Positions 10,416-36,829 of a stretch of DNA of 36,829 nt are shown piece after piece (the stretch's first letter is position 1; the number at the start of each line of letters is the position of its first letter). Under the pieces are notes generated by a model. It searched no databases. It was given only the letters and a program-made list of their open reading frames with translations, and was not told where the DNA came from. The DNA comes from a virus, in IMG/VR virus record IMGVR_UViG_3300048997_000351, positions 1 through 36,829 of that record. One strand, 5' to 3'. A program made the position numbers and the translations under genes.

Positions 10416-13400
10416 TCAATCGCCAGCTTCCCGCGCTGTTGCCTGGGCCGCGGCCGCCTGGGCGACGGGCCCGGCGGGCTTGATCTCGGGCTTGGGCGGC
10501 TGGATCACCGCATCGCGTTCCCGCCGCACCTCGTCTGGCCACGCCAGGCCCTCGTCTTCCCACTCGTGGTCTTCGCTGGGCACCCGCAGGCCTCGGCGTT
10601 CGTCGATCTTTGCCAGCGCGGCCCGGTTCCGCTCGGCGAGTTCGGCGACCCACTGCGGCGTCTCCTGCTCAGTCCGCTCGGGTTCCGGCTGCAGGGCCTC
10701 CCGCTCAGCCTCGTCCGGCTGCGGCGGCTCAGCCGACCGCAACGGCTCCATCTCGGCGTCCGGATGCCGACGCATGTATTCGCTGTGCGCCGCCACGGCC
10801 AGGTGGCGCCCCTGCTCGGTGGTCTTCTCCCACTCGGCCCGGGCTTCCATCGTCTCGGTGAGCTTGCCGATCAGGCCACCGAAAATCCCCTCGGTGACCT
10901 GGGCTGAGCGGGCGTGTGCCTCGTGCCGGTCGGCGACCTCGGCCTCGCCGCGGGCCCGCGCGGCCCGGGCCTGAGCGGTGGCGAGGCTGGCCGTCTGCCG
11001 GGCCTCATGCTCACCGATGCGGACCTGCCGGAGCTCGGCGCCGACGTACCGCGGCGCCCAGGCGGTCTCAGCCTCGTAGGCGGCCCGCATGTTGAGCAGG
11101 CGGCCGTCCGGCACGCCGCGCAGGTCGACACCGTCCACCGGGCCGAGGGCGGCGAAGGCCTCATGCCAGGCGGCCCGGGCCTCAGGGGAGTTGACCGGCT
11201 CGGGCCCGATCGGCTCAAACAGGTGGCTGTAGCCGAAGGTCTCCCGGTAGGCGGCGACTTTCGAGGCGCGGCCTTCCCAGTCCAGCCGGCCGACCGGATC
11301 CTCGGGCACGGGACCGAGGGCCCGCACAGCCCAGACCGGCTGCTGGCCGGCGGTGTGCTCGCCGAGCCGGTCCGCCCGGGCGTCCATCGCCTCGGCGAGC
11401 TGGGCGACGTACTCGCGGCGTTCGGGGTCTTCGATGTCCGGCACGCGCGAGGTCCACGATCCTGGCGTCTCCGGCACCAGCGAGCCGGTCTGCTCGCGGA
11501 TCCGGGCGTCAATCACCGCGACGACGTCCCTGGAGCCCGTCAGAGGCCCTGAACCGACAGCCCGGGCGAGGACATCGCCCGCGTCCTGCCCAGCCGCTTC
11601 CGCACCGCGAAGCGTCCGCCAGAGCCACGTAGCGCTGCCGCCCAGCTGGACGTCCTGGTACTCGGCGGGCAGGTGCTCGCGCAGCAGGCGCTCATACCGG
11701 CCGCTGATCGCCTCGGCGGTCTGGTCCTGCCAGATGGCGTGGAGCTTGCCGAGGTGGTCGGCGTTGGCCAGGTTGCGACGCTGGACCTCGAGCGCGGACA
11801 GTTCGGCGCCCTCGTTGGCCAGGACGTCGGACAGCACGGCGATCGGTTCGCGGGCCTCGTGGTCGCGTTCGCGGACTCGGAAGAGTTCGGGGTCGGGCCA
11901 GGCTTCCCGTTCCCGGCCGAGCTTCTCGTGCCACTCAAGCTCGGGTGCCGCTCGCGTCCCCGGCGCTGGGTCGGCCACCCGGGCCGGATCGGTAACGGCG
12001 TAGACGGTGTTCCGGTCAACGGCCCGGGTCATGGCCACGTAGGCCCACTCACGGGTCTCGGTGCCGGTAATAAGGGCGGCGGCCTCGGCTACGGTGCGGC
12101 CCTGGGCCGAGTGCCCGGTGATCGCATAGGCGAGGTCGGCGTGCTTCTTGCCGTCCCGGTAGGTGATGGTGCTGTCGGCGTACTGGCGCTGCCCGGTCTC
12201 GCGGTCCGCGTCGAGCAGTTTGCGCAGCACGAGCTCGTCGCCGTTGACGGCCTCAACCCGCCAGGTGTCGCCGTTGGCGACACCGAGGTGATGGTTGTTC
12301 TTCCGGGTGATGACCAGGTCGCCGACACTTGCGGCCGCGCCGTCCTTGAGCGGCGCCTCCGGACCGCGGTCGACCACGCCGAGGTGCCGCAGGTCATCGC
12401 GGATCCGGCGGCTGAGCTCAAGGGTGGTTTCGTGGCTGTGCGCCATGAGCAGGACGTCACGGCCGTCCAGGTAGGCGGCCAGGTAGGCCTTGCGGGCGCC
12501 GTCCAGGGCCTCGTCCGCGGTGCCGCCGCTGATCCGGCCGTGCTGGTCGTAGCCAGTGAGCACTTCGGCGTCACCGGCGCGGAGCCGGAGCGAGGCTTCC
12601 CGCTCCCACTCGGCAGCGAACCGGACCGGCTCAGCCAGCTGGGCGTGCTCGTACTCACGGGCCAGCAGGGCCATGCCGCCGCCGCCCTCCACGGCGGTCA
12701 GCTGGCCATGGTCACCGGCGATCAGAAGCTTGGCGCCGTGACGCCGGGCGAGCTCGGCCAGGTCCCGGATGTCCTCGGTGCTGGTCATCGAGCCTTCGTC
12801 CAGCATGAGCAGTGTGCCCGGGTGGATCTCCTTGGCCCCGTAGTAGCCGCGGCCCTTGGTCTCGCTGTGCCCGAGGAACTTGGCAGTGTTCCAGGCCTCG
12901 ATCTGCGCGGCGCCGGCCAGGACGTTGCGCGCAGCCTGGCTCGGCGCGAGGCCGACGACGCGCCCGGGCCACATCCGCGCGGCCTGGGCGAGAACGTGCG
13001 TCTTGCCGCTGCCGGCCGGCCCGACGATCGTGTAGACGGTGCGCGGCGAGGTCAGCGCGGCATGCACCGCGGCGGCCTGGTCCATCCGCAGGCCATTGGC
13101 CAGCCGGTCACTCGCGTCCTGAGCGCGGGCGCGGCCCGCCTCGGTCAGCGCGGACACCGTCGTGCCCAGCAGGGCGGCGGACTCGTCCTCGTCCAGCCGC
13201 GGGGCGGTAGCGCCCCCCGCCGTGGTGACGAGACGTTCCTCGCGGGTCAGCTGCACCTCGGTGGCGTATCGGCTCGTCCCGGGCCGGGTGTAGATGCTGC
13301 GGCTATCCAGGTCCCGCCGCAGGTGATCGGGCAGCGGCGGCCACTCTGGAGCGTCCAGGCAGAGCACCTGCTCGACCTCGCCGGCGAGGGCCCGGTCGGT

Positions 13401-14801
13401 GAGGTCGTGGACCAGGGCGACAAGGCCGTCGGGAGCCATGGCGTAGGCCTCGGCCGGCAGCACGGTGGCCATCGCGCGCATCAGGTCCGCGCGGGTCCAC
13501 GTCGATTGCGCGGTCTGAACCTGCGTAAGCGCGCGGCGCATCGCGCGGTGCTGCGCATCCACGATCGGCGCGGGACCGCCTGGCACCGGGTTGCGCACCA
13601 GGGCGTCATCGCCGCCCGGGCCGCGCAAGTTGGACACGGCGGGCGCGACCTGCGCGAGCGTGCTGCCATCCGCCGCGTCCCACTTGGCCTGCCACTTGCT
13701 GGCCAGGGCATCCCAGTCGATCGCCCCTTCTTCCTTGCCCTCGCGGGTGGCCACCGTGACTTCCTTGCGGATGTAGAGCAGTTCCCGCCGGTTAGGGGCC
13801 CGGCCGTGCTTGCGGGTCCAGGCCTCCACCGCCGCCGGCGTCGCCTCATTGATGGTCTGCGTGCGCGTGGAGTATGCATCGATCTGCCCGCGCGAGATGC
13901 CGTCGATCTCGTTGCCGGTGCCATCCGGCCGCGCGGACAGCTTCACGCCGAAGCGCCGCGCGAGATTGGCCTCCAGGTGCGCGGTCACGATCGCCTGCAT
14001 CGCGCCGAGCTGCGCGCGCAGCGCCATCGTGTCGGTTGCGCGCCACACGCCATCCCGCGCGGTCAGCGACATCCGCGCAATCTGGTTGTGGACGTGATCT
14101 TGCATGTCGCCGTCCCGGCTGGTGCCCTGCAGCCAGGACGTGACCATCAGTCCGGTGGCCTCGTACCGGCCCGGTTCCTCATCGCCGACTCGCTTGCCGT
14201 GGTAGCCGGTCCGGGTCACCGCCCACCGCTGCAGGTGCTCCAGGCCGGCCCGGTTGGCCTCCTGCAGCATCTCGGAGAACTCGGCCTCGCGGCCATCCCA
14301 CCAGTCGGCGGCCGCGGCGTCGCCCAGCTGCCGGGCCTGGCGGGCGTTCTCCCGGATGCTGGCGTGCAGAATGCTCACGCTCTTGGAGAACGAGACCGTG
14401 ACGTCGGTGTACGCGGGAGACTTCCGGGTGGCCTGGGCGGCCTGGCGCTCGAGCTCGGCCAGCCGTTCCCCGGTCGCGTGCGGCTCTGCGGCCAGCAGTT
14501 TGCCCAGGTGCTCGGCATATTTGGCGTACCCGCCGGGCTTGCGCCCCAGCTGTTCACCCGTCCGCGGATCCACCTGCCGGTAGACCTTCTCGTACGGTTC
14601 CCGTTCGACCCGCTGACCAGGTCTGAAACCCAGGGCCTCGGCGCCGCGGCCGAACCACCGGCCCGGGGCTTCACCCGCCTGAGCGGCGTCGATGTAGTAG
14701 CCGCCGCTCGGTTCCTGCTTACGCTCCGCAGCGGCGCCACCTTGGCCCTTCCAGACATAGCCCAGGTCGAAGCCGCTCTTGGCGGTGACGACGGCGGCCA
14801 T
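10416..14801 (-). CDS. MobF-family relaxase-helicase (TrwC/TraI-like) with EAGD tail
   Basis: The relaxase has 1461 residues. The N-terminal TrwC-type domain shows SGGYYIDAAQAGEAPGRWF (33-50, candidate nicking tyrosines 35/36), VTVSFSKSVSILH and the metal region TSRDGDMQDHVHNQIARM with H236 and H238. The residue where the first histidine of the triad is expected is Q225 or G226, so the HUH site looks altered. A helicase follows: Walker A VGPAGSGKT near residue 590, LLMLDEGS near 663, and late helicase motifs ITGHSAQGRT and VAMTRAVDRNT. The C-terminal third is helical and charged and ends ATAREAGD. It should nick at an oriT and unwind DNA for transfer. The start has GGGAG just upstream. Confidence 0.92.
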   Translation of the reverse strand: MAAVVTAKSGFDLGYVWKGQGGAAAERKQEPSGGYYIDAAQAGEAPGRWFGRGAEALGFRPGQRVEREPYEKVYRQVDPRTGEQLGRKPGGYAKYAEHLGKLLAAEPHATGERLAELERQAAQATRKSPAYTDVTVSFSKSVSILHASIRENARQARQLGDAAAADWWDGREAEFSEMLQEANRAGLEHLQRWAVTRTGYHGKRVGDEEPGRYEATGLMVTSWLQGTSRDGDMQDHVHNQIARMSLTARDGVWRATDTMALRAQLGAMQAIVTAHLEANLARRFGVKLSARPDGTGNEIDGISRGQIDAYSTRTQTINEATPAAVEAWTRKHGRAPNRRELLYIRKEVTVATREGKEEGAIDWDALASKWQAKWDAADGSTLAQVAPAVSNLRGPGGDDALVRNPVPGGPAPIVDAQHRAMRRALTQVQTAQSTWTRADLMRAMATVLPAEAYAMAPDGLVALVHDLTDRALAGEVEQVLCLDAPEWPPLPDHLRRDLDSRSIYTRPGTSRYATEVQLTREERLVTTAGGATAPRLDEDESAALLGTTVSALTEAGRARAQDASDRLANGLRMDQAAAVHAALTSPRTVYTIVGPAGSGKTHVLAQAARMWPGRVVGLAPSQAARNVLAGAAQIEAWNTAKFLGHSETKGRGYYGAKEIHPGTLLMLDEGSMTSTEDIRDLAELARRHGAKLLIAGDHGQLTAVEGGGGMALLAREYEHAQLAEPVRFAAEWEREASLRLRAGDAEVLTGYDQHGRISGGTADEALDGARKAYLAAYLDGRDVLLMAHSHETTLELSRRIRDDLRHLGVVDRGPEAPLKDGAAASVGDLVITRKNNHHLGVANGDTWRVEAVNGDELVLRKLLDADRETGQRQYADSTITYRDGKKHADLAYAITGHSAQGRTVAEAAALITGTETREWAYVAMTRAVDRNTVYAVTDPARVADPAPGTRAAPELEWHEKLGREREAWPDPELFRVRERDHEAREPIAVLSDVLANEGAELSALEVQRRNLANADHLGKLHAIWQDQTAEAISGRYERLLREHLPAEYQDVQLGGSATWLWRTLRGAEAAGQDAGDVLARAVGSGPLTGSRDVVAVIDARIREQTGSLVPETPGSWTSRVPDIEDPERREYVAQLAEAMDARADRLGEHTAGQQPVWAVRALGPVPEDPVGRLDWEGRASKVAAYRETFGYSHLFEPIGPEPVNSPEARAAWHEAFAALGPVDGVDLRGVPDGRLLNMRAAYEAETAWAPRYVGAELRQVRIGEHEARQTASLATAQARAARARGEAEVADRHEAHARSAQVTEGIFGGLIGKLTETMEARAEWEKTTEQGRHLAVAAHSEYMRRHPDAEMEPLRSAEPPQPDEAEREALQPEPERTEQETPQWVAELAERNRAALAKIDERRGLRVPSEDHEWEDEGLAWPDEVRRERDAVIQPPKPEIKPAGPVAQAAAAQATAREAGD

Positions 14802-17551: not shown

Positions 17552-18064
17552 CTACTCCCCCGCTTCCACGCCAGCGACCCGCTCGATCGCAGCGTCGTAG
17601 TCGGCGTCACTCATGCCGGCGTACCTGTGCTGGCCTTCTACCCATTCCCGGTACTCGGCCAAGGCCTGGCCCTCGGTCTGCCCGCGCGCGTCGGCGATCC
17701 GCCGCCAGGTCGCCCCGGCCTTGACCGCGCCGTCGACCGACGCCGGGTGCCGGTAGTAGCGCGCCAGCACCTCACCGTTGGCCAGCACCTCCAGGTGCTC
17801 GCTGACGGTCAGCGGCTCAGCGTCCAGCGCCCCATGCCTGGCCGGGTCGTACTCGCCGTGGGCCTGCAGGGTCGCTCGCGAGCGTGCCGTGAGGTCCCGC
17901 TGAGTGAGCTCGTCGTACCGCCTGCGGGCGTCCACTGTGGTGTGCTCGAGCGGGTCGATGTCGTGGTACCTGACCGGGCGCTGTGCCTCTTCGGCGTCCC
18001 GGTGGTCCCGGTAGCCCTGCGTGAGGCCGTTGACCAGACCGGCGGTCTCGTTCGGATCAGTCAT
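17552..18064 (-). CDS. Tagged protein, 170 aa, last gene of its operon
   Basis: ATG 18064 overlaps the stop of the upstream gene. The product is hydrophilic and Arg/Asp/Glu/Tyr-rich (HDIDPLEHTTVDARRRYDEL). A central helix-turn-like piece reads VDGAVKAGATWRRIADARG near residue 115, and the protein ends YDAAIERVAGVEAGE. Only a hairpin and a convergent gene follow, so the EAGE tail cannot be a ribosome binding site for a next gene. It lies far from the main cluster of tagged genes, separated by the relaxase. Function unknown. Confidence 0.75.
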   Translation of the reverse strand: MTDPNETAGLVNGLTQGYRDHRDAEEAQRPVRYHDIDPLEHTTVDARRRYDELTQRDLTARSRATLQAHGEYDPARHGALDAEPLTVSEHLEVLANGEVLARYYRHPASVDGAVKAGATWRRIADARGQTEGQALAEYREWVEGQHRYAGMSDADYDAAIERVAGVEAGE

Positions 18065-18884
18065 GATGCGCCCACCGCCGCCCGCCGTTGATATTCACGA
18101 CTTCGGCGGCCTGGCCCTGGTCGGCCTCCAACTCGGTGAGCCGGGCCCGGGCACCGGCCAGCAGATCGGCCACGTCGATGCCGTACCAATGGTCGCCGTC
18201 ACCGTCCCGGATCATCCGCTCATACATTTCGATCTTGCGGCGGGCGACGCCGATCTCAAGCTGGCGGGTCCGCTCGGTGTATTCGCTCTCCAGGCCGTCA
18301 TCCTGCTGCCGGCGATCGTTTAGCCGCTTCATGATCAGGTTGGCGGCATCGGCGGTCGCCGCGGTGAAATCGTGCACGTCCATGCGATCCAGGCTCGCGC
18401 TGACCGGCCGGTCCCGGGCGGGGTCATCATCGGGCCGGTGAGCCAGGGGGTCGGTGCCCTCCAGGTGACGCAGGACCCACCGGTCAAGCCGGGCAGCGGT
18501 CTCGGCGGGATCACCGGCGCCCTCCGGCACGCCGGGCGTGCGCGGGTCGTCCAGGATCCACGCGGTGGCGATCGCATCGTCCAGGCCGCGGACGGCCTCG
18601 CCGAATCGTTCCTGGGCCGACTGGCGGGAGGTGCCCAGGGGCTCGCCGATCCGCTCCCAGGAGGAGCCCCGGCGCCGTTCGTAGGCCACGGCCAGGGTGA
18701 GCAGCTCGCGGGCTTGTGCGGCCAGCTGGGCCGCGCTCTCGGCGAACTCGCCGCCGTGGGCGTAGCTGTCGGCGTAGGTCGGGACCAAGCCGCGGGCGCT
18801 CTCGGCGATCTCGGCGGCCAGCTCGGACAGGGCGACGCGGAGCCGCGCGGCCCGGCTGTACGTGATGCTGTCACTATCACTCAT
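18057..18884 (-). CDS. HTH protein of actinobacterial plasmids, 275 aa
   Basis: A helix-turn-helix near residues 70-100 (RRRGSSWERIGEPLGTSRQS followed by AQERFGEAVRGL) resembles the DNA-binding region of sigma-factor domain 4 or MerR-like proteins. The remainder is helical, including a long basic coiled stretch near 205-240 (RTRQLEIGVARRKIEMYERM). ATG 18884 is directly flanked by a 19-base operator-like repeat, so the protein may regulate itself and the divergent par genes. It shares an ATGA overlap with the tagged gene downstream but ends WAHHD, without the tag. Confidence 0.7.
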   Translation of the reverse strand: MSDSDSITYSRAARLRVALSELAAEIAESARGLVPTYADSYAHGGEFAESAAQLAAQARELLTLAVAYERRRGSSWERIGEPLGTSRQSAQERFGEAVRGLDDAIATAWILDDPRTPGVPEGAGDPAETAARLDRWVLRHLEGTDPLAHRPDDDPARDRPVSASLDRMDVHDFTAATADAANLIMKRLNDRRQQDDGLESEYTERTRQLEIGVARRKIEMYERMIRDGDGDHWYGIDVADLLAGARARLTELEADQGQAAEVVNINGGRRWAHHD

Positions 18885-22875: not shown

Positions 22876-23182
22876 CAAAAAAATGGGGCGCCGCCCGGCG
22901 AAGACGACGCACCCGAAGATCACACCAGCTGCAGCCATCATAACCGTCCCGACCGGCAGCACCCGGCGGTCACGGCCTGTCGCGTCCGCGAGCCTGTATC
23001 ACCCGGTACCCGGCCGCACGCTGTTCTCGCTCTCGATCCGCTGCCCGTACTGCCAGGGAACGCACCTCGGCCGGGTCCGCGAGGAACGTCAGGCAGCCGG
23101 CAGGCGCCGCGTTCCGTGCGGGCCTGTGCAGGTCGTTGTCCGGCGCGTCTACCGGCCGGTCAGCGCCGGGCTGGCTGCGTGA
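22865..23182 (+). CDS. Small basic zinc-ribbon-like protein, 105 aa
   Basis: ATG 22865 lies inside the end of the HTH gene (11-base overlap). The product starts MPPDKKMGRRPAKTTHPKI and is basic throughout. It contains CPYCQGTH near residue 60 and a further Cys (VPCGPV) that could complete a treble-clef or half ribbon. The stop overlaps the GTG of the primase-polymerase gene. It is probably a nucleic-acid-binding accessory of the replication block; not recognised as a family. Confidence 0.65.
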   Translation: MPPDKKMGRRPAKTTHPKITPAAAIITVPTGSTRRSRPVASASLYHPVPGRTLFSLSIRCPYCQGTHLGRVREERQAAGRRRVPCGPVQVVVRRVYRPVSAGLAA

Positions 23183-24066
23183 GCGCGGTGCTCGCCGCCG
23201 CGCGAGCCTACATCGGCCGTGGCTGGCCCCCGTTCGTCCTGTCGGCGGGCAAGATTCCCGTGGCCAACTGCGACCCGTGCCGCAGGCAGCACGTGACCGC
23301 TAAGCAGATGGAGGCCTGCACATGCCTGTCGTGCCACGGGTTCTACGCGGCCACGATGGACGCCGGCCGGGCGGCCGAGATGATCCGCCGCTACCCGCGC
23401 GGCCTGCTCGCCATCCGCACCGGAGCGCCCTCGGGAACGGTGGTCATCGACGTCGACGCGCCGCACGGCCTGCCGACCATGCGCGCCCTGATGGATGCGG
23501 GGGAGCTGCCCCGGACGCTGGCCCAGCGAACCGGCTCCGGCGGTTACCACCTGGTCTATGCGCACCCGGGCGTGCGGATCCCGTCCGTGCCCGGGAAGGG
23601 TGGCGTCGGCGTCGACATCAAGGCCGATGGCGGATACATCGTGGCAGCCCCAAGCCTGCATCCCCGAACGCGCAAGCCCTACGAGTGGCGGGCCGACATC
23701 CGCCAGGCACTCACGGCGCTGCCGGAGGTCTGGACTGAACGCCTCCGCGAGCCGGAACGGCCGACACGGGCCACCGTCACCCGGCTGCCCGACCTCGGCC
23801 GGGCAGGACGGTATGCCGATGCCGCACTGCGCGGCGAGGTTCAGCACGTGCTCGACTCGCCGGAGGACGGCCACAACCACGCGCTGTTCACCGCGGCGCT
23901 CAAGGTCGGCAGCCTGGTCGCCGCCGGGGCACTGGACGAGGTCACCGCGGCCGAGGCACTCGCCGTGGCCGCGCAGCAGGTCGGCCAGAAGCCGGGCGAG
24001 ACGCGCCGCACGATCGCGTCGGGGTTCCGTGCTGGCGCGACCTCGCCACGTCAGGGGGCCGCGTGA
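23179..24066 (+). CDS. Replication primase-polymerase (AEP), untagged
   Basis: The protein has 295 residues from GTG 23179. AEP motifs are GWPPFVLSAGKIP (15-27), VVIDVDAP (88-95), GSGGYHLVY (119-127) and DGGYIVAAPS (150-159). A cysteine-rich insertion (C31, C34, C47, C49, C52) probably binds zinc. The C-terminal helical part (DSPEDGHNHALFTAAL) is typical of the family. It is coupled by GTGA to the SF3 helicase, forming a standard plasmid or phage replication pair. Unlike the transfer-operon homologue at 3773 it has no EAG tail (ends RQGAA). Confidence 0.9.
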   Translation: MSAVLAAARAYIGRGWPPFVLSAGKIPVANCDPCRRQHVTAKQMEACTCLSCHGFYAATMDAGRAAEMIRRYPRGLLAIRTGAPSGTVVIDVDAPHGLPTMRALMDAGELPRTLAQRTGSGGYHLVYAHPGVRIPSVPGKGGVGVDIKADGGYIVAAPSLHPRTRKPYEWRADIRQALTALPEVWTERLREPERPTRATVTRLPDLGRAGRYADAALRGEVQHVLDSPEDGHNHALFTAALKVGSLVAAGALDEVTAAEALAVAAQQVGQKPGETRRTIASGFRAGATSPRQGAA

Positions 24067-27109: not shown

Positions 27110-27349
27110 ATGAAGGTTAAGACTGGCGTTACCCGGCTGCTGAAGCGCCTTCCGGCGGGCGGTCCCGAGCACGATGCGCTCGCGGCGCTCGCGACCACGC
27201 TGGCTGAGGCGCTGGATGGCGACCCTCCGGCGACCGCGACGCCGAATCTGGCCCGGGAGCTGCGCGCGACGATCGCCGCGCTGACCGCGTCGCCGGACGA
27301 GGCCGCCGATCCCGAGGTGGAGGAGCTGCTTCGCGATGTCCGCCGCTAG
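27110..27349 (+). CDS. Probable terminase small subunit, 79 aa
   Basis: I take ATG 27110 (MKVKTGVTRLLKRLP) because GGAGG lies seven bases upstream; ATG 27092 is in frame but weaker. The small helical protein has NLARELRATIAALTASPDEA, a pattern seen in short genes directly before terminase large subunits of actinophages. Its last codons overlap the start of the terminase ATPase by 14 bases. The assignment rests mainly on this position. Confidence 0.55.
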   Translation: MKVKTGVTRLLKRLPAGGPEHDALAALATTLAEALDGDPPATATPNLARELRATIAALTASPDEAADPEVEELLRDVRR

Positions 27350-28220
27350 GTATGCGACCCCGGCCAGTGACCGACCGAACCTTGCGGGGGCGGTCGGCCG
27401 CGTTGCGGAGGCTCTGGGCATGCCGCTGATGCCGTGGCAGCGGCAGGTGCTTGAGGTGGGCACCGAGCTGGAGGCCGAAAAGCTGGCCTACCGCCAGGTC
27501 ACCACGCTGGTACCAAGGCAGAGCGGGAAGAGCAGCTTGACCTGCTCGCTGATGGTCGGCGCGGCGCTGGCCCGGCCGCGGACGCGGGTTGTCTACGCGG
27601 CGCAGACGCGGCTGGACGCGCGCAAGAAGCTGGTGGACGACTGGATGCCGCTGATCGGCGCGTCCCGGCTGGCGCCGCTGGTGACGCCGCGGCGCGGGTT
27701 CGGCACCGAGGCGCTGCTGTTCGCCAACGGCAGCCGCATCGAGCTGGTGTCCGGGACGCGGGTGTCCGGCCACGGCGCGACCCTGGACTTGGCCGTGGTC
27801 GACGAGGCGTGGGCCCAGGTGGACGACCGGCTTGAGCAGGCGCTGCGCCCGGCGATGATCACCCGCCCGGATCCGCAGTTCTGGATCATCAGTACGGCCG
27901 GCGATGACACGAGCACGTGGCTGCGACAGAAGGTCGACGCCGGGCGCCTGGCGGTGCAGCTGGGGGCCGCGGAGGCCGCCGCCTACTTCGAATGGTCGGC
28001 GGCGGAGGGTTCGGACCCGTCCGACCCGGCGACCTGGCACGGATGCATGCCCGCACTCGGCCACACGGTACCGGAGGCGGCCATCCGGGCCGATCTGGAG
28101 CTGATGAGGCCGCCGGAGTTTCAGCGGGCCTACTTGAACTGGTGGCCTGGGGACACCGCGGGCGGCTGGGAGGTCTTCAGCCAGCAGGCATGGGAGCGGG
28201 CCGGTGGGGATTTCCGGTGA
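27336..28220 (+). CDS. Terminase large subunit, ATPase part
   Basis: The packaging ATPase motifs are clear: adenine-binding QRQ near residue 36, Walker A VPRQSGKS (59-66), Walker B LAVVDEA (152-158) with catalytic Glu, and the coupling motif IISTAGDD. Typical large subunits have 450-550 residues with an RNase H-like nuclease behind the ATPase. This ORF stops at 294 residues, just where the nuclease should begin. The nuclease is found in the next ORF, behind an HNH domain and in the +1 frame. ATP-driven packaging of DNA into a capsid is the known role. Confidence 0.9.
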   Translation: MSAARYATPASDRPNLAGAVGRVAEALGMPLMPWQRQVLEVGTELEAEKLAYRQVTTLVPRQSGKSSLTCSLMVGAALARPRTRVVYAAQTRLDARKKLVDDWMPLIGASRLAPLVTPRRGFGTEALLFANGSRIELVSGTRVSGHGATLDLAVVDEAWAQVDDRLEQALRPAMITRPDPQFWIISTAGDDTSTWLRQKVDAGRLAVQLGAAEAAAYFEWSAAEGSDPSDPATWHGCMPALGHTVPEAAIRADLELMRPPEFQRAYLNWWPGDTAGGWEVFSQQAWERAGGDFR

Positions 28221-28965
28221 TCACCAGGCGGTGCGGCGGGCTCTGGTCGCCGCGATGGAACCGGGACAGCCGTGCGCCCGCTGCGGCCGCCCGCTACTGC
28301 CCGGCCAGCCGGTTGACCTGGATCACCTGGTGCCCAGGTCGGCTGGCGGCGAGGGCCCGCGGGCACTGTCCCACGCCAGCTGCAACCGCAGGCATGGTGC
28401 CCGGCTTGGTAACGCTGCCCGCCGGAGGCAGAAGCAAGGGAGGCGCAGGAAGATGATCAGGCTTACGGTCGGCGTGGAGATCTACGCGGACCGCTCAAAA
28501 ACGGCGATCGTCCTGGCCGGGATACCCGAGCCGGGCGTGGGCGACATCGAGTTGCTGCCCCTGGTCGACGGCGCCGACGCCGTACCGGCCGTGGCCGAGC
28601 TGGCCGTCCGGTGCGAGATCGACGCCGTGGCCGTAGACCCGCGGTCCAACGCGGCGACCCTGGTTGAGCCGCTGCGGCGGGCCGGCCTCCCGGTCAAGGA
28701 ACCGGACGCCCGTGACATGGCCGTCGCGCACGGGCGGTTCGCTGACTTGATGACCGCCGGCAAGCTCAGACATCACAACCAGCCGGAGATGACGGCCGCG
28801 GTGCGGTTCGCGCAGGCACGCAAGCTGGCCGGGGCTGCGGCACTGGAGAGGTACGGGACCAGCGCCGACGCGGCTCCGGCCGTCGCCGCCGAGCTGGCGA
28901 TCTGGGCCCTGGGCGATCTGAGCAAGCCGAGCGGCGAGGGTCCGTTCGTGTTGTTCGGCCGGTGA
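28204..28965 (+). CDS. HNH endonuclease fused to terminase nuclease domain
   Basis: GTG 28204 has GGGAG seven bases upstream and overlaps the ATPase stop by 17 bases. Residues 20-70 form an HNH nuclease: CARCGRP, VDLDHLVPRSAGGEG, and SHASCNRRHG. After a basic linker, residues 86-253 match the RNase H-like nuclease of terminase large subunits: VGVEIYADRS, VAVDPRSNAATLVE, DMAVAHGRFADLMTAGKL, and SADAAPAVAAELAIWAL. An internal ATG at 28453, with GGAGG upstream, could give the nuclease alone. HNH proteins beside terminases assist cos cleavage in several phages; an insertion between the two terminase domains is unusual. Confidence 0.8.
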   Translation: MGISGDHQAVRRALVAAMEPGQPCARCGRPLLPGQPVDLDHLVPRSAGGEGPRALSHASCNRRHGARLGNAARRRQKQGRRRKMIRLTVGVEIYADRSKTAIVLAGIPEPGVGDIELLPLVDGADAVPAVAELAVRCEIDAVAVDPRSNAATLVEPLRRAGLPVKEPDARDMAVAHGRFADLMTAGKLRHHNQPEMTAAVRFAQARKLAGAAALERYGTSADAAPAVAAELAIWALGDLSKPSGEGPFVLFGR

Positions 28966-28969
28966 TCAG

Positions 28970-29119
28970 TTGACCGAGGACCAGGGCAGCGGAGCACCGC
29001 AGGAGCCAGATGGCGAGAGTGCCTTGCCCACAGACGACGACCTGGCCCGGCTGTTTTTCCACCCGTGCCAACACCACGACCCGCCGACGATTTCGTGCCC
29101 GCACTCGCGGGATTGGTGA
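28970..29119 (+). CDS. Small Cys/His protein, 49 aa (tentative)
   Basis: A TTG at 28970 opens a 49-residue frame, MTEDQGSGAPQE..., acidic at first and ending FHPCQHHDPPTISCPHSRDW, with Cys/His spacing that could bind zinc. The stop overlaps a GTG of the peptidase gene. No good ribosome binding site is seen. It is supported only by filling the gap between two tightly packed genes. Confidence 0.4.
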   Translation: MTEDQGSGAPQEPDGESALPTDDDLARLFFHPCQHHDPPTISCPHSRDW

Positions 29120-29130
29120 AAGGAGGTGCC

Positions 29131-29790
29131 TTGAGCGCCGACGAGATTTGGAAAACCGCGCTGCATGAGGGCGGGCACGGCTACATGGCGTGGCGTACCG
29201 GGCGGCGGGTCGGAGCGGTCACCGTCGTGCCCAGGGGCCAGTCGGCCGGGGCGACGGACTGCGGGTCGCTGCGGATGCGATGGCGTGAGTTTGACCGGCT
29301 CGACCGGTCGGCGCCGGTGGCGAGCTGGCCCGCCTCCATACGCAGGCTGTACGACATCGTGGCGATGTGCACGGCGGCGGGCCAGCTCGCCGAGGATCTG
29401 TTCTTTTGGCCGGGCCGCACCGGCCGCACCGGTGATCCGGTGATCATGCGGGCCACCGAGCTGGCTGAGGCCACCGTTGCCGAGACCCCCCCGGCGGCCG
29501 CGCCGCGCAACGCTGGCCGCCCGGCAGAGTTGCGGCCGACCCGCGCGGAAGCCGCGAAGCTGGCCGCAGCGGACACGCAGAGCGACGCCGCCGCGCTGGC
29601 CTGGTGGGCTGCCGACATGTTTCCAGGCCAGATGGGCCGCCAGATGGCGTGGCTGGGCCACATCGAAGCGGAAACCCGGGCGTGCCTGAGTACAGCCGAA
29701 GGCCCGGTGCTGCGCCTGGCTCGCGCGTTGCGGGAGTACGGCACGCTGTCCGGCAACGCGGTTCGGGCGGTCCTGGATGCCGACCGCTGA
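29131..29790 (+). CDS. AAA-less FtsH-type (M41-like) zinc metallopeptidase 1
   Basis: TTG 29131 follows AAGGAGG; GTG 29116 is an alternative. The active site is HEGGH (residues 12-16), with the GQLAEDLFFWPGRTGRTGDP segment (83-103) and MRATELAEAT. These correspond to the FtsH peptidase pattern HEAGHA ... AE ... tGa.nDl..AT.iA, so D102 is the likely third zinc ligand. FtsH proteases carry an AAA ATPase before this domain; here it is absent, leaving a 219-residue peptidase. In phages a small protease usually matures the capsid; whether this one acts so is unknown, since no capsid gene is present. Confidence 0.8.
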   Translation: MSADEIWKTALHEGGHGYMAWRTGRRVGAVTVVPRGQSAGATDCGSLRMRWREFDRLDRSAPVASWPASIRRLYDIVAMCTAAGQLAEDLFFWPGRTGRTGDPVIMRATELAEATVAETPPAAAPRNAGRPAELRPTRAEAAKLAAADTQSDAAALAWWAADMFPGQMGRQMAWLGHIEAETRACLSTAEGPVLRLARALREYGTLSGNAVRAVLDADR

Positions 29791-30379
29791 CGACGCGGAG
29801 CACTCGCCCCCAGGTGCCGTCGCCGCCCACGAGGCCGGACATGCGGCTATGGCCGCCTACTTCGGCTTCACCCGCCGCGGCCCGGTGTCGCTGGAGCCTC
29901 CGGTTTGCTTTGCCGGCTGGCATCCGCGGACGCCGCCGCCGGGTGAGCTGGAGGGCCTGACCGAACCCGGCCCGGTGCTACCGGCCCGGATCCGGCGCTA
30001 TGTCGAGGCCACCGTCATGGTCCTGCTGGCCGGTGACGTCGCCGAAGGTATCTGCTACTGGGCCGCCGGGCCCGGCGAGGGCATCGAGGACCCGCCGTGG
30101 CGGCAGGCACCGGCCCTTCCGCCGTGGGAGCGGGCATGGCTGGCTGAGCACGGTGGCGGCGAAGACGATGTGCACCGGATCCGGGGACTGCTGCAGCAGA
30201 TGCACGGCCCGGACTCGGCGGTGGCGGGCGCGCACGAGCTGTACCTGCGGGCCGAGACCCGGCACCTGGTCCGGCGGCCCCGTTTCCGCCGGCAGGTCTG
30301 TGCCCTGGCCACCGAACTGCTGGCCTGCGGCACCCTGCCCGCGTCCCGCTGGCGAGCGGTCCTGGCGAGTGCTCAATGA
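29777..30379 (+). CDS. AAA-less FtsH-type (M41-like) zinc metallopeptidase 2
   Basis: ATG 29777 overlaps the previous gene by 14 bases. The 200-residue protein has HEAGH (18-22), LLAGDVAEGICYW (83-95) and GGGEDDVHRIRGLL (126-139), again in FtsH-peptidase order with D130 or D131 as candidate third ligand. It has only modest similarity to its neighbour beyond these motifs. Two adjacent stand-alone M41-like domains could form a heteromeric protease. There is no membrane segment or ATPase domain. Confidence 0.78.
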   Translation: MPTADDAEHSPPGAVAAHEAGHAAMAAYFGFTRRGPVSLEPPVCFAGWHPRTPPPGELEGLTEPGPVLPARIRRYVEATVMVLLAGDVAEGICYWAAGPGEGIEDPPWRQAPALPPWERAWLAEHGGGEDDVHRIRGLLQQMHGPDSAVAGAHELYLRAETRHLVRRPRFRRQVCALATELLACGTLPASRWRAVLASAQ

Positions 30380-30825
30380 TCCTGCTCGAGGTGACCCTGC
30401 CGACTCGTGCGCACCTGTACCGGGCGATCACCGCGCACATCCGCCAGTTGCGCCGCGATGGCGTGGCGGTGCCGCCCGAACTGGCTGCGCTGACGGCGGC
30501 ACTCGGGTCAGGAACGGTCAGCAGTGGCCAGGGCTGGCCGCCGGTCGCCGAAGTTGAGGTTCCCCGCGAGTGTGACCCCTACGTGGTTTCCGTCCGCGAG
30601 GCGAGCCGCCGGCTGGCCGTGTCAGAGCGGACAGTCCGGCGGCTCACCGCGACGGGTGAACTGCCGTCGCAGAAGATCGCCGGTCGGCGGGTCTATCCCG
30701 TCGACGCCCTGGAGCGGTACTTGGAGGTGGCCAGCCCTGACCAGCCAAGCCGAGCGCGATCGCCTGGTCGCCCAGATCAGAAGCCGTCAGCTGGTCCAGC
30801 GGCACCGACTGGTGGAGAAGGTTGA
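30376..30825 (+). CDS. Excisionase-type HTH protein, 149 aa
   Basis: The ATG at 30376 overlaps the peptidase stop. Residues 68-117 carry the HTH-17/excisionase pattern: VVSVREASRRLAVSERTVRR, then LTATGELPSQKIAGRRVYP and LERYLE. An N-terminal helix pair (LYRAITAHIRQLRRDG) precedes it and a Pro-rich tail follows. It may regulate the packaging operon. It is the second protein of this type in the window. Confidence 0.75.
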   Translation: MILLEVTLPTRAHLYRAITAHIRQLRRDGVAVPPELAALTAALGSGTVSSGQGWPPVAEVEVPRECDPYVVSVREASRRLAVSERTVRRLTATGELPSQKIAGRRVYPVDALERYLEVASPDQPSRARSPGRPDQKPSAGPAAPTGGEG

Positions 30826-31214: not shown

Positions 31215-31520
31215 ATGGGACGCCGCTCGCATCGCCGCAAGCCCCGGCAGGCTGCCAGCCGGGTCAGTCCCACCACCAGCCTGCCGGTTACAACCCGCGC
31301 CCGGCCGCCTGCGGCCACCGCGCCGCTGCCGTATGACGCCGCCGAGGGGGCAGCCCGCCAGCTGGTCGCTGCGGCGGCCCTCGATGACGGCGGGGCCCGG
31401 CTCGGCGAACTGGCCGGGCAAACCGCGCTGGACTGGCGGCTGTCCGGGACGACCATGGCGACACTGGCCAACGCGGTCCGGTCCCTAGCCAATGAGCTCG
31501 CCGAGCGAGCGGCCGAGTGA
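31215..31520 (+). CDS. Small protein before the tape-measure gene, 101 aa
   Basis: ATG 31215 has GAGG five bases upstream. The product is basic at the N-terminus (MGRRSHRRKPRQAASRV), with an Ala-rich helical C-terminal half (AARQLVAAAALDDGGARLGE). Its stop overlaps the GTG start of the tape-measure gene. Position would suit a tail assembly chaperone, but it has no slippery frameshift arrangement that I can see and no recognisable homology. Confidence 0.6.
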   Translation: MGRRSHRRKPRQAASRVSPTTSLPVTTRARPPAATAPLPYDAAEGAARQLVAAAALDDGGARLGELAGQTALDWRLSGTTMATLANAVRSLANELAERAAE

Positions 31521-34500
31521 GCACCGCCACCGTCATCTACAACCTGGTCGGGCGCGATTCCGCCTCATCCGCATTCAACAAGGTGGGCTCGTCGGCGGGG
31601 CGGCTGGAGAAGACGGTCGGCCGGCTTGGCAAGGCCGTTGCCGTCGCCGGTGCCGCAGTCGTCGGCTCGGCCGCGGCGATCGCCGGGGAGAGCATCAAGG
31701 CCGCGGTCTCTTTCCAGGCCAGCATGGAGAAGATCAAAACCCAGGCCGGGGCGTCGCAAAAGGACGTGGACTCGCTCACGAAGTCCGTGCTGAAGATGGC
31801 CCCCGCCACCGAGCAGGGGCCGCAGCAGCTCAGCGAAGCCCTCTACCACCTGAAGTCGATCGGCCTGGACAACGCCGACGCGATGAACGCGCTCAAGACC
31901 GCCTCTGACTTGGCAGCGGTCGGCGGCGCGAACCTCGAGGACACCACGAACGCGCTCGGCGGTGCGTGGCGCAGCGGCATCAAGGGTGCCCAGTCGTTCG
32001 GCCAGACCGCTGCCACGGTGAACGCGATCATCGGCGCCGGCAACATGCGCATGGAGGATTTCACCGCCGCTATTGGGACCGGCATCCTGCCCGCGGCGAA
32101 AACCTTCGGGGTGAGCCTCCAGAGCATGGGTGCCGCGCTCGCGCTCATGACTGACGAAGGCGTACCGGCCGAGGACGCGGCGACCCGGCTGAAGATGTCC
32201 CTGTCGCTGCTCGGGGCACCGTCGATGCAAGCGCAGAAGCAGCTCAAGACGATCGGCCTGACCGGGCTGCAGCTCGCCGACGCGATGCGCGGCCCGCAAG
32301 GGCTCATCGGGGCCATCTCGCTGCTGAAGTCCCATCTGGACGCGAGCGGCCTGTCCGCCTCGCAGCAGGCGGCGCTGCTGTCGCGGGCGTTTGGCGGCGG
32401 CCGGTCCAGCTCGGCGATCCTGACCATGATCAACAACCTGGACGTGCTGCGCAAGAAGCAAGACCAGATCAACACCACCACCGGCAGGTACGGCGGCGCG
32501 GTCGCCGCGCAGCGGAAGACCGCCCAGGCCCAGTTCGACCTGCTCAAGTCGAGCCTGGACACGCTGGGCATCCGGCTCGGGCTGGACCTGCTCCCGCCGG
32601 TCACGAAGTTCACGCACTGGCTGTCCACGACCGGGATCACCGAGGTCAGCAAGTTCACCACCAAGGTCCGGTCGATCATCCCGGTCTCCGCGATCGAGCA
32701 GGACGTCAAGAAGGCCGAGCAGTGGGTCAAGAACCTGTTCGGCATGGGCGGGGAGAAGGCCCCGAAGATCACACCCCGGATCGACCTGAGCAACGAGGGC
32801 CTGTTCACGAAGACGGCGACGCTCAAGGTCAAGCCGCAGGTCGACATCCAGAACGAGGGCCTGTTCACCCACACGCCAGTTCTGAAGACCACACCGCAGA
32901 TCGACCTGCAGAACGAGGGGATCTTCACCAAGACGGCCCCGGCCGCGAGCAAGAACGCCGGGAAGTCCATCGGGGCAATGCTCAAAAACGTCGACTGGGG
33001 CAGCATCGTCGCCGACGCGATCGACTCGGCGGTGAGCGCGGCCGGGAAGATCGGCGCCGCGTTCGGCAAGCTGCTCGGCAAGATCAACTGGCTGCAGGTC
33101 GGCAAAGAGGCCGCGTTCGTCCTGGTGCCGCTGGCGGTCGGGCTGGTCAACAACCTGGTCACCGCGCTGATCATGGAGACGATCCACCACCCGCTCGACA
33201 TGCTGCTGTTTGTCGCGTCCCTGTTCCCGATCGGCAAGCTGGCCGACGCCGCGATCTGGATCTTCAAGGACATCCCGCTCATCGGGCCGATCGTGGAGGC
33301 ACTGCTCAAACCGCTGAGCAAGGCCGGTGACCTGGTCGGCAAGGGTTTCGGCAAGATCCTGAAGAAGATCTTCGGCCCGGTCGGCGACCGGATCGGCGCG
33401 GCGGTCGGGGATGCCCGTAACTGGCTGCTCGGCAAGGGTGAAGAGGCCCTGCTCGGAATGGCCCGCGGGCTCGGTATCGGCTGGCGGTTCGCGGTCCGCT
33501 GGCTGGGCAAACTCGGCGACCTGGTGACCGCGCCGTTCGCCAAGGCCGGATCCTGGCTGCTCGGCAAGGGCCGCGACATCCTCGACGGGCTGCTGTCTGG
33601 GCTGCGGTGGGTGTGGAACAAAGGCGTATCGCCGTGGCTCGGCAAGATCGGCGGCTGGATCGGCGGCCTGTTCAGCAAGGCCGGTTCCTGGCTGGCCAAA
33701 GCAGGTCAGTGGATCATCGACGGGCTGCTGAACGGCTTGCGGTGGGTCTGGAACAAGGCCCTGTGGCCCTGGCTGGGCAAGATCGGCGGATGGGTGACCG
33801 GCCTGTTCTCCAAAGCCGGGTCGTGGCTGTCGCGGGCTGGTCAGTGGATCATCGACGGGCTGCTGAACGGCTTGCGGTGGGTCTGGAACAAGGCCCTGTG
33901 GCCGTGGCTGGGCAGAATCCCCGGCTGGATCGGCGGCCTGTTCAGCAAGGCCGGGTCGTGGCTGTGGAATCACGGCTGGGACCTGATCCAGGGCCTCTAC
34001 AACGGGATCAAGAACCGGATAAAAAACGTCGGCTCCTGGGTCAAGAACAACATCGTCAACCCGTTCATCAAATGGATCAAGCACCACTTCGGCATCAAGT
34101 CGCCGTCGACCGTGATGCACGGAATCGGCGTCCAGATGATCGCCGGCTTCCTGCGCGGCATCCTCATGAGCGACCCGCTCGACTCGCTGAAGTCCATCTT
34201 CGGTGGGCTGCCGCAGGCCCTGGGCGGCATGATCGAGCACGGCCTGATCTCCGCAGCGAAACTGCCCGGCAAGGCGATCTCCGCGCTGAAGTCGCTGGGC
34301 TCGACGGCCCTGTCGGCGATCGGCTCGGCCCTGTCCGGGGTCAAGGGCCTCGGCTCGGACGTGCTGGGCCTATTCGGTCTCGGAGGCGGTGGTGGCGGTT
34401 ACTCGGCAGTGCCGGCCAAGTCGGGGTCGGCCGCAGCGGCGCAGCGGTTCGCCGCCGCCCACCTGGCCCAGTTCGGGTGGGGCCAGAATCAGATGGCCTC

Positions 34501-34960
34501 GCTGATCCCGCTGTGGAACCAGGAGTCCGGCTGGAACGCCAACGCGGTCAACCCGTCCTCAGGCGCGTATGGCATCCCCCAGTCGCTCGGCCACGGCCAC
34601 CCCTACAACTTGGGCGACTACGCCAACCAGGTGCTGTGGGGCCTGTCCTACATCAAGGGCCGCTACGGCAGCCCGGCTGCGGCGTGGGCGCATGAGGAGG
34701 CGTTCAACTGGTACGCCAAGGGCCTCCCCGGGCAGATCTTCAGCACCCCCACCCTGATCGGTGTCGGTGATGGCACGCGGCCGGAGAAGGTGACCGTCAC
34801 CCCGCTCGGAGCCAATTACGGCGGCGGCGATGGGGCCGCGGCACCGCTGATCGGCACGGTGAACATCAGTCCGCAGGAGGGCCCCACCGTCGACGAGGCG
34901 ATGGGTGCGCTGCTGTTCACGATGCGCCGGGCCCGCCAGGCCGGATTCCCCCGGAGGTGA
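31517..34960 (+). CDS. Phage tail tape-measure protein with lytic transglycosylase domain
   Basis: The protein has 1147 residues from GTG 31517. The N-terminal part (about 45-330) is a TP901-type tape-measure core (FQASMEKIKTQAGASQKDVD; FTAAIGTGILPAAKTFGVSL). Three 20-residue repeats follow (about 415-475, consensus xITPxIDLxNEGLFTKT), then hydrophobic segments. Four 45-residue Trp-rich repeats span 676-855. Near residues 970-1070 is an SLT/lysozyme-like domain (WNQESGWNANAVNPSSGAYG then IPQ) with the catalytic Glu. Tape measures set tail length, and their muramidase opens cell walls during DNA entry. No tail tube, portal or capsid gene accompanies it. Confidence 0.9.
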   Translation: MSTATVIYNLVGRDSASSAFNKVGSSAGRLEKTVGRLGKAVAVAGAAVVGSAAAIAGESIKAAVSFQASMEKIKTQAGASQKDVDSLTKSVLKMAPATEQGPQQLSEALYHLKSIGLDNADAMNALKTASDLAAVGGANLEDTTNALGGAWRSGIKGAQSFGQTAATVNAIIGAGNMRMEDFTAAIGTGILPAAKTFGVSLQSMGAALALMTDEGVPAEDAATRLKMSLSLLGAPSMQAQKQLKTIGLTGLQLADAMRGPQGLIGAISLLKSHLDASGLSASQQAALLSRAFGGGRSSSAILTMINNLDVLRKKQDQINTTTGRYGGAVAAQRKTAQAQFDLLKSSLDTLGIRLGLDLLPPVTKFTHWLSTTGITEVSKFTTKVRSIIPVSAIEQDVKKAEQWVKNLFGMGGEKAPKITPRIDLSNEGLFTKTATLKVKPQVDIQNEGLFTHTPVLKTTPQIDLQNEGIFTKTAPAASKNAGKSIGAMLKNVDWGSIVADAIDSAVSAAGKIGAAFGKLLGKINWLQVGKEAAFVLVPLAVGLVNNLVTALIMETIHHPLDMLLFVASLFPIGKLADAAIWIFKDIPLIGPIVEALLKPLSKAGDLVGKGFGKILKKIFGPVGDRIGAAVGDARNWLLGKGEEALLGMARGLGIGWRFAVRWLGKLGDLVTAPFAKAGSWLLGKGRDILDGLLSGLRWVWNKGVSPWLGKIGGWIGGLFSKAGSWLAKAGQWIIDGLLNGLRWVWNKALWPWLGKIGGWVTGLFSKAGSWLSRAGQWIIDGLLNGLRWVWNKALWPWLGRIPGWIGGLFSKAGSWLWNHGWDLIQGLYNGIKNRIKNVGSWVKNNIVNPFIKWIKHHFGIKSPSTVMHGIGVQMIAGFLRGILMSDPLDSLKSIFGGLPQALGGMIEHGLISAAKLPGKAISALKSLGSTALSAIGSALSGVKGLGSDVLGLFGLGGGGGGYSAVPAKSGSAAAAQRFAAAHLAQFGWGQNQMASLIPLWNQESGWNANAVNPSSGAYGIPQSLGHGHPYNLGDYANQVLWGLSYIKGRYGSPAAAWAHEEAFNWYAKGLPGQIFSTPTLIGVGDGTRPEKVTVTPLGANYGGGDGAAAPLIGTVNISPQEGPTVDEAMGALLFTMRRARQAGFPRR
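33542..34081 (+). repeat. Four tandem 135-bp units inside the tape-measure gene
   Basis: Units begin at 33542, 33677, 33812 and 33947, each encoding 45 residues starting KAGSWL and containing WIIDGLLNGLRWVWNKALWP or variants. Units 2 and 3 are almost identical in DNA, so the expansion looks recent. The fourth unit is diverged. Confidence 0.85.
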
Positions 34961-35924: not shown

Positions 35925-36121
35925 GATCCCGCCTCCTTGCTGTTATCGGCTTCCCGTTCGCGCTGGAAGCCGACGCAGTATGTTCCCTGCCGGGCTTCGG
36001 CGGCCCGTTCGCCGGGGGTGGGCTGGACGAGGCCGAAGTTCCGGCCGAGGTCGTGGAGGATGCCGCGCCAGCCGGTGGGCAGGTCCTTGATGACGCCGCA
36101 ATCTGCGTGCTGCTGAGTCAC
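35921..36121 (-). CDS. Small tagged protein, 66 aa (paralogue of the junction gene)
   Basis: GTG 36121 overlaps the previous stop. The first 34 residues (MTQQHADCGVIKDLPTGWRG and onward to VQPT) are nearly identical to the gene at 1-104. After VQPT the two diverge completely: here PGERAAEARQGTYCVGFQRE and an EAGS end, there a short EAGE tail. This shows that tagged proteins exchange or lose their C-terminal parts while keeping an EAG end. It has two or three Cys but no clear domain. Confidence 0.72.
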   Translation of the reverse strand: MTQQHADCGVIKDLPTGWRGILHDLGRNFGLVQPTPGERAAEARQGTYCVGFQREREADNSKEAGS

Positions 36122-36561
36122 TGTCCTGCCTCTAACCCGCGGTCGGCCTGCTGCGGTGCCTGTTCGGCGGTGGTCTCCCGGTCGCCGTAGTTGATCAAGT
36201 GAACGTTGTGGCCAACCGCGCTCTTCTGCACGTTGATCTGGCCGCCGCCGGTGTTCACTATCAGCGGGCCCTGGTGATTATCGGCGCTGGGCTGGCGGTC
36301 GCCCGCGTCGCCGCGGCCGCGGCCACCATGCCCGCCCGCCTCGCCCGCGGCCACGTTGCGGACTTCGGTGCCGTGCCCGAAGGCCTGGCCGCTGATGCTG
36401 ATGTCCTCGGCGCCGGTGTGGGTGATGCCTCCGGTCTGCGGTTGGCTGGCCCGCGCTTGCTTTTCGGCATTGTGCTCATCAAGCCACCGCTGGGCTTCCT
36501 GCTCCCGTTCCTGGCGCTCGGTCTCGCGCGCTTCTTCGCGGCCGCGGCCGAACAGCCTCAT
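36018..36561. repeat. Second copy of a tandem duplication (first copy 1-562)
   Basis: Bases 1-562 and 36018-36561 are highly similar and collinear apart from an 18-base deletion in this copy. Across the circular junction the two copies lie 812 bases apart, so this is a tandem duplication within the tagged-gene operon rather than terminal repeats of a linear molecule. Single-base differences scattered along it show that it is not an assembly overlap. Confidence 0.8.
36118..36561 (-). CDS. Tagged protein with Gly/Asn-rich RHIM-like segment (copy 2)
   Basis: The 147-residue near-duplicate of 101-562 starts at ATG 36561 with MRLFGRGREEARETERQERE. It lacks six residues in the linker after NAEKQARA but keeps the whole ITHTGAEDISISGQAFGHG segment, the IVNTGGGQINVQ/AVGHNVHLINYG segment and the GLEAGQ end. 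Conservation is strongest in the Gly/Asn-rich parts and weakest near the N-terminus, suggesting that the former matter. Function unknown. Confidence 0.75.
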   Translation of the reverse strand: MRLFGRGREEARETERQEREQEAQRWLDEHNAEKQARASQPQTGGITHTGAEDISISGQAFGHGTEVRNVAAGEAGGHGGRGRGDAGDRQPSADNHQGPLIVNTGGGQINVQKSAVGHNVHLINYGDRETTAEQAPQQADRGLEAGQ

Positions 36562-36743
36562 TCGCCAGCCTCCGGCCCGCCCTGCTCGGCCTGGTGGCCG
36601 CGCTGGCGGTCTTCATGTGCGAGCACGGCCTCGCTGGACAGCAGGCACCGGCTGTCGGCGATCTCCTGGTCGAGCGCCGTAGCTTCGACCTGGCCTTGGC
36701 GGTCGGCGTGGAAGTCCTCAATCTGCTGCTGGACGTTCTGCAT
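36558..36743 (-). CDS. Small tagged protein, 61 aa
   Basis: ATG 36743 has AAGGG ten bases upstream. The product, MQNVQQQIEDFHADRQGQVE and onward, is Gln/Asp/Glu-rich and helical with one Cys, and ends GHQAEQGGPEAGE. GAA TGA overlaps the ATG of the next gene. It takes the position held by the remnant at 559-624 in the other copy of the duplicated block. Not recognised beyond its tail. Confidence 0.65.
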   Translation of the reverse strand: MQNVQQQIEDFHADRQGQVEATALDQEIADSRCLLSSEAVLAHEDRQRGHQAEQGGPEAGE

Positions 36744-36783
36744 GGTGCGGTTTCCCTTCGGTGTTCTGGAGTGGCGGGGCTGG

Positions 36784-36829
36784 CTATTCGCCAGCCTCGG
36801 GGCCGCCGTCCTCGGCCTGGGCCTGGTGC
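36784..36829 (-). CDS. Small tagged protein, 3' part (starts at 104 across the circular junction)
   Basis: The last 46 bases of the window read, on the minus strand, as HQAQAEDGGPEAGE and TAG. Joined to the gene that runs off position 1 they are in frame. The stop is followed by a 40-base gap before the 36743 gene, so this tail does not overlap a start. Confidence 0.7.
   Translation of the reverse strand, partial: HQAQAEDGGPEAGE

Follow-up and report, generated by a model that had tools for sequence, protein, structure and literature searches.

Two adjacent genes of a viral record, here called A and B, encode M41-like peptidase domains that stand without the ATPase motor and without the membrane anchor of FtsH, and similar lone domains form a wide set in phages and plasmids. 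The reading that we favour, and hold to be moderately probable, is that A and B are duplicated, motor-less zinc metallopeptidases of the M41 type, accessory to the mosaic actinobacterial plasmid-phage element in which they lie, and that they would act independently of ATP on exposed protein segments. The DNA studied is the IMG/VR virus record IMGVR_UViG_3300048997_000351, positions 1 to 36,829, called the window in what follows; its features are collected in Table 1.

Table 1. Features of the window that bear on genes A and B, in map order.
Feature	Position	Strand	Basis or remark
MobF/TrwC relaxase-helicase	10416..14801	-	Pfam TrwC 121.9 bits, AAA_30 151.4 bits
Terminase large subunit, ATPase part	27336..28220	+	phrog_9 E 2.8e-41
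HNH domain fused to terminase nuclease part, other frame	28204..28965	+	phrog_9 on residues 121-239 E 1.6e-11; HNH phrog_1808 E 3.2e-9
Gene A, predicted stand-alone M41-like zinc-peptidase domain	29131..29790	+	219 aa, TTG start
HEGGH zinc-binding motif of A (predicted)	29164..29178	+	sequence
AE motif of A (AGQLAED)	29389..29394	+	alignment A6
D101 of A ('TGDP'), rival third-ligand position	29434..29436	+	favoured only by FtsH-including alignments
D151 of A ('TQSD'), probable third zinc ligand	29584..29586	+	27-protein profile, A6 column
Gene B, predicted paralogous stand-alone M41-like zinc-peptidase domain	29777..30379	+	200 aa, ATG start
HEAGH motif of B	29828..29842	+	sequence
AE motif of B (AGDVAEG)	30041..30046	+	sequence and alignment
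D131 of B ('EDDV'), probable third zinc ligand	30167..30169	+	profile alignment, A6 column
HTH_17/excisionase-type DNA-binding protein	30376..30825	+	Pfam HTH_17 42.3 bits, TIGR01764 32.2 bits
Tail tape-measure protein, lysozyme-like C-terminal domain	31517..34960	+	PhageMin_Tail 67.7 bits; PHROG tape measure E 1.2e-37

The start of gene B overlaps the end of gene A by 14 nucleotides, and the GC content by codon position is of the coding type in both (0.72/0.61/0.83 in A, 0.80/0.58/0.84 in B). The TTG at which A begins is preceded, at normal spacing, by the Shine-Dalgarno sequence AAAGGAGGT, a strong ribosome-binding site; a longer frame, starting at the GTG at position 29065, was judged less likely. 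The two products align with 32% identity over 93 amino acids (blastp) and are, on this evidence, paralogous. In each of them a HEXGH motif, an AE motif and a downstream Asp follow one another in the order of FtsH (M41), just as the initial annotation of the window had described for two adjacent genes at this place.

The conservation of these residues was evaluated in an alignment, A6, whose 29 rows are 27 M41-like proteins together with A and B. Its H, E and H columns are invariant because the set was picked on that motif; the third Asp played no part in the picking, and its column holds Asp in 28 of the 29 rows, or in 26 of the 27 homologues when A and B are set aside, so that a loss of zinc ligands among homologues, one of the outcomes that could have overturned the M41 assignment, is not what the alignment contains. 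Both D151 of A and D131 of B lie downstream of the AG..AE helix and fall in this column. For A, we infer the exact third ligand rather than read it off, since the FtsH-based alignment offers D101 as a rival: D101 fitted that alignment, but the independent 27-protein alignment points to D151, and D101 was dropped as first choice; its position is not conserved within the stand-alone set. The AE motif is less constant, with A conserved in 24 of the 29 rows and E in only 16. The predicted zinc ligands, H-H-D, are kept in both A and B.

A HEXGH motif by itself is cheap: most of the 74 motif-bearing frames that the pattern AxHE[AG]GH picks out in 71 viral stretches are not M41-like. The Pfam family Peptidase_M41 gives 30.8 bits to A, over its cut-off of 29.9, in a match that covers only the surroundings of HEXGH and the following strand, and 12.8 bits to B, under the cut-off; HEGGH and HEAGH both stand in the helix context of M41. 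A profile of the 27 M41-like proteins, built without A and B, yields 46.9 bits for A and 42.4 bits for B. When each protein is shuffled 500 times with the HEXGH helix held in place, the best shuffles attain 18.9 bits (A) and 26.0 bits (B), and none reaches the real score. The same controls were applied to narrower profiles: one of nine FtsH/AAA-type rows only (A 26.4 bits, B 13.3) is matched by none of the shuffles of A and by 4 of the 500 of B; one of ten stand-alone proteins (A 24.5, B 22.1), by none and by 3; and the combination of these 19 rows (A 38.7, B 26.7), by none in either case. The profile of FtsH/AAA rows thus supports A and leaves B unsupported beyond the HEXGH helix; judged by the whole series, the remainder of the two domains beyond HEXGH is not the work of chance.

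The search in the opposite direction gives the same family. When the PDB is searched with a profile of A, B and 13 further short stand-alone proteins, 15 in all and none of them an FtsH, the peptidase domains of bacterial FtsH, YME1 and AFG3L2 are recovered with E between 2e-16 and 1e-8, and six phage FtsH loci align to A with 26-31% identity over 112-166 residues. The assignment of both genes to M41-type peptidase domains is borne out by this search and by the profile built without A and B, and from these comparisons A and B are best described as homologues of the FtsH peptidase domain. Membership in a different HEXXH family, the other outcome that could have undone the assignment, was also looked into: the stand-alone profile recovers FtsH and not M50, the M50 peptidase RseP appearing only at E 0.47. 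The M50B family was considered because A scores 23.8 bits with it, against a cut-off of 26 (B has no match). M50B peptidases have several membrane helices around the active site, and this identity was rejected on the E value of RseP and on the lack of a membrane segment in A or B. A library of defence systems gives no match for either protein.

A structural model of A was built on 21 alignment rows, 12 of them stand-alone and 9 of the FtsH/AAA type, and has a pLDDT of 74.7 and a pTM of 0.69. Foldseek finds the FtsH family among the PDB matches listed, and VIA-align gives Z scores of 15.1 with E. coli FtsH, 12.4 with 2di4, the isolated FtsH protease domain, and 10.5 with entry 5iqj; the next, unrelated PDB row has Z 3.8, and among the rows compared no family besides the FtsH type and 5iqj lies above it. 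The predicted fold of A is that of M41, a result that is supporting and partly circular, and not independent evidence, because 9 of the 21 alignment rows are themselves FtsH/AAA-type. A model from the sequences of A and B alone has a pLDDT of 38 and is useless.

A and B thus have in common with FtsH (Pfam PF01434, TIGR01241) the order HEXGH, AG..AE, Asp and a helical C-terminal half with V..LA..L...G.L, and A shares the fold in its model. They differ from it by some 25-50 extra residues, inserted ahead of the third Asp (counted from alignments), by an identity of only 13-24% (in the structure alignments of A with the FtsH family), and above all by what is missing. Family PF00004 (AAA) has no match over its cut-off in the whole record, its single sub-threshold match, of 13.8 bits, lying inside the relaxase/helicase gene, and the highest 19-residue Kyte-Doolittle mean is 1.02 in A and 1.36 in B, which leaves no membrane segment. 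Neither the AAA+ module in the same chain nor the N-terminal membrane segments that mark FtsH proper are found: the profile search and the hydropathy agree with the initial annotation, which had seen neither.

How common are such genes? A pattern designed with the help of FtsH led to nine phage loci, all of them FtsH genes, eight with the AAA module and one cut at a contig end. The 74 frames found with AxHE[AG]GH were judged to be 10 short M41-like proteins, 3 long AAA-type proteins and, for the rest, other proteins or non-coding; with Pfam M41, the 10 short ones range from 37.5 bits, the only score over the cut-off, down to no match in two (L120 and L150). Two further patterns picked out 27 and 21 stretches, which overlap with those of the first, and contributed 12 more stand-alone proteins, once a duplicate (L216, of L203), a truncated frame (L218) and two AAA-bearing genes (L192 and L213) had been left out. 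The set of 27 is completed by L179, L189 and L190, from a Pseudonocardia plasmid, and by L180 and L212, which are longer and probably of the FtsH type (the L212 frame has 699 amino acids in the full record); 25 of the 27 are taken as motor-less. As a separate observation, apparent viral contigs carry long AAA-M41 genes of the FtsH type (L163, L165, L176, L192, L213 and L099-L107), and the M41 parts of L163, L165 and L176 have clearly diverged from ordinary FtsH.

The profile of A6 matches 24 of the 50 records searched: the window, 21 viral records in which the gene stands alone, the viral record G066, whose gene is of the AAA type, and the Pseudonocardia plasmid p1. Since the 21 viral records had been found beforehand by pattern, they show existence, not frequency. 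The other 26 have no match; 9 of them have a related terminase, and 17 are plasmids. PF01434 likewise has no match in 43 related-terminase records (41 from IMG/VR and 2 plasmids), nor in 17 plasmids (of which the relaxase led to 13 and the terminase to 2, the remainder being the 2 related-terminase plasmids). A search for the pair in other mobile elements, which the initial annotation had proposed, succeeds in part: it yields the stand-alone genes and one second tandem pair, but no close relative of A or B. None of either was found in the viral contigs searched, and none of A in genome contigs; tblastn against phages and plasmids gave no close relative of A or B, and for A at E up to 10 returned only a match of 20% coverage, with E 4, in Rhodococcus phage Finch.

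The second pair, in IMGVR_UViG_3300049139_000233 (L197, 3962-4567 and 4598-5272), is the only other tandem arrangement. Like A and B, it consists of two adjacent stand-alone M41-like genes on one strand; it differs in lying on a 92.6-kb contig near sugar-metabolism genes, with glycosyltransferase and epimerase genes within about 3.5 kb, and is not close in sequence. Plasmid p1 of Pseudonocardia sp. DSM 110487 is an actinobacterial plasmid with short M41-like domains, WP_220263404.1, WP_220263371.1 and WP_220263492.1, all named 'hypothetical protein', which have HEAGH, HEAAH and HEVGH as their HEXXH motifs, plus the Asp; these are three dispersed copies of 145-205 amino acids, not in tandem, and only distantly similar to A and B. 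A lone M41 protein of an uncultured Caudovirales phage, A0A6J5RJ76 (BFVD; 214 amino acids), is already named 'Peptidase M41 domain-containing protein', and matches with E 6.6e-4 and a TM-score of 0.52-0.53 at 11% identity to A. The entry 5iqj is an uncharacterized lone protein of Vibrio cholerae with an M41-like fold, aligned with the model of A over 112 residues and retrieved by the stand-alone profile with E 0.0088; it is shorter than A and B (125 residues in its model, 134 in its chain), and is a solved structure given without a function, for which no paper was found in the mainly open-access literature searched. Among the papers listed by a search of the same literature, none deals with M41 domains that stand alone in a phage or plasmid, and the lone domains across both are almost all unnamed.

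The element that carries A and B is a mosaic. Its left half is the backbone of a MobF conjugative plasmid, with WhiB, PrimPol, a TraG/TraD-type coupling protein, the MobF relaxase and ParA; the best 20 relaxase matches listed are all on actinobacterial plasmids, at no more than 35% identity, and comparable backbone genes are found in pPaSha3 and, among the terminase relatives, in pFP3. The right half has PrimPol, a D5-type helicase, a split terminase, A, B, the HTH gene and the tape-measure gene. A terminase and a tape measure on a MobF backbone may be what is left of a phage, or a hybrid whose particle has gone unrecognised.

Several side observations concern this element. Each half has its own PrimPol-domain gene (3773-4924 on the minus strand, 23116-24066 on the plus strand). 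Among eight related IMG/VR terminase loci, the two parts of the terminase lie in different frames in five (L002, L003, L004, L007, L009) and in one frame in three (L005, L006, L008), and none has a CxxC..H motif in the frame of the C-part; the split terminase possibly belongs to a clade of two-chain terminases. The tape-measure gene contains three in-frame repeats of 135 nucleotides, at 33578-33982, that are 76-78% alike. Near both ends of the record, minus-strand frames finish in GG[PRV]EAGE-stop (629-961, 846-1229, 1141-1626, 36558-36827, and 36784-36828, where the contig boundary leaves no more than the last 14 residues of a gene), and the minus-strand frame 17552-18094, the sixth, ends in VAGVEAGE; GGxEAGE-stop does not occur in 1.89 Mb of other fetched loci, and GG[PRV]EAGE is a shared C-terminal tag. 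Positions 1-580 and 36018-36579 form a stretch that is 90% identical, with indels, and 96% identical over the first 300 nucleotides: either paralogous genes lie at both ends, or a circular replicon is seen with variants.

What A and B do has to be weighed against this background. The initial annotation had placed them where a capsid-maturation protease and portal would lie in a phage map, and as a position this stands: A and B lie between terminase and tape measure, the slot expected of an HK97-type prohead protease (Peptidase_S78), and in pFP3 and NZ_CP108372.1 (terminase shared at 45%) portal, HK97 protease, capsid and tail genes are found where A, B and the HTH gene sit here. The functional reading does not follow from it. 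The HK97-type protease is of another class and fold than M41, the record has no match to Phage_portal, Phage_capsid or Peptidase_S78, and its left half is the MobF backbone. Besides the window, the search for these three families covered 2 plasmids and 10 of the 21 other viral records; head-gene matches occur in 4 of the 10, two of which have an S78 of their own, and between these matches and the M41-like gene lie about 21 to 66 kb (portal, S78 and capsid at 43.6-48.0 kb and the M41-like gene at 78.4 kb in G046; capsid and portal at 24.1-29.4 kb against 2.8 kb in G051; capsid at 49.9 kb against 83.7 kb in G042; S78 at 4.7 kb against 70.8 kb in G049). Of 80 fetched loci, 41 IMG/VR records having a related terminase were searched for M41, and none has a match. 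With no head-gene match, a plasmid backbone and distant head genes in other records, it is very unlikely that A and B mature heads or tails in place of the S78 enzyme, as a protease acting on capsid, scaffold or tape measure. The incomplete look of the phage part, with terminase and tape measure but no portal or capsid match, would also fit genes that are decaying remnants without function in a mosaic element; both frames are open, with codon GC of the coding type, A has its strong ribosome-binding site and neither copy has lost any of the three predicted zinc ligands, and we consider decay improbable.

Two other alternatives were considered. ImmA cuts its repressor in ICEBs1, and by analogy A and B might form a regulatory pair that cuts the downstream HTH_17 protein, or another regulator of the element, and so switches excision, replication or transfer. 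The HTH_17 gene, with its 42.3 bits, overlaps the stop of gene B by 4 nucleotides, and another record (G047) has an HTH_17 gene about 110 nucleotides upstream of its stand-alone M41-like match; but HTH_17 genes are common in such elements, and an HTH_17 match within 1 kb passes the cut-off in only 1 of the 11 other records searched and falls below it in one more (G043), on which count a conserved HTH partner was rejected. That A and B cleave the HTH product is a guess, attractive but unsupported, and the regulatory reading as a whole is unlikely. A further proposal would have the two domains dock on an ATPase ring of the host, that of FtsH or of another AAA protein, either supplying it with peptidase subunits or acting as decoys. 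The peptidase domains of FtsH form its six-fold disc, and A and B retain the C-terminal helical half; against this, neither a linker nor a segment facing the AAA module can be seen, A beginning directly at the first peptidase helix, and the divergence from FtsH noted above is large, so that docking earns little credence.

We return to the preferred reading, that of motor-less accessory peptidases. Counted in favour of the accessory character are the stand-alone genes in 21 other viral records and in the Pseudonocardia plasmid, the second pair near sugar genes, and the distance from head genes. A and B would be active zinc peptidases that need no ATP; having no ATP motor, they would cut a protein only where its chain is already exposed, as in flexible tails, linkers or regulators; the initial annotation had suggested the tagged proteins or the tape measure as possible substrates. 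Their most likely task would be the limited processing or removal of a particular protein of the element or of the host, not general degradation, and the two may act as separate enzymes or as a mixed oligomer. The pair would have an accessory role in the dealings of the element with its host or with its own regulators. A bolder version, offered as a tentative and rather doubtful proposal, is that mobile elements carry a large, fast-diverging and undescribed clan of ATP-independent M41 peptidases, freed from the AAA motor and duplicating locally, within which A and B would form either a mixed ring of peptidases or a pair that processes in two steps, disarming or trimming particular proteins of the host or of the element.

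The finding is tempered by the fact that databases already name lone M41 domains and that one such structure has been solved; what is described here is the M41 domain without its motor, and duplicated. To our knowledge, M41 peptidases are taught as inseparable from the AAA ring that unfolds their substrates. With lone, soluble M41-like domains that keep the predicted zinc ligands, the action of the peptidase in the absence of the motor could be addressed directly, and a scatter of phage and plasmid genes now called 'hypothetical' may be flagged as likely proteases.
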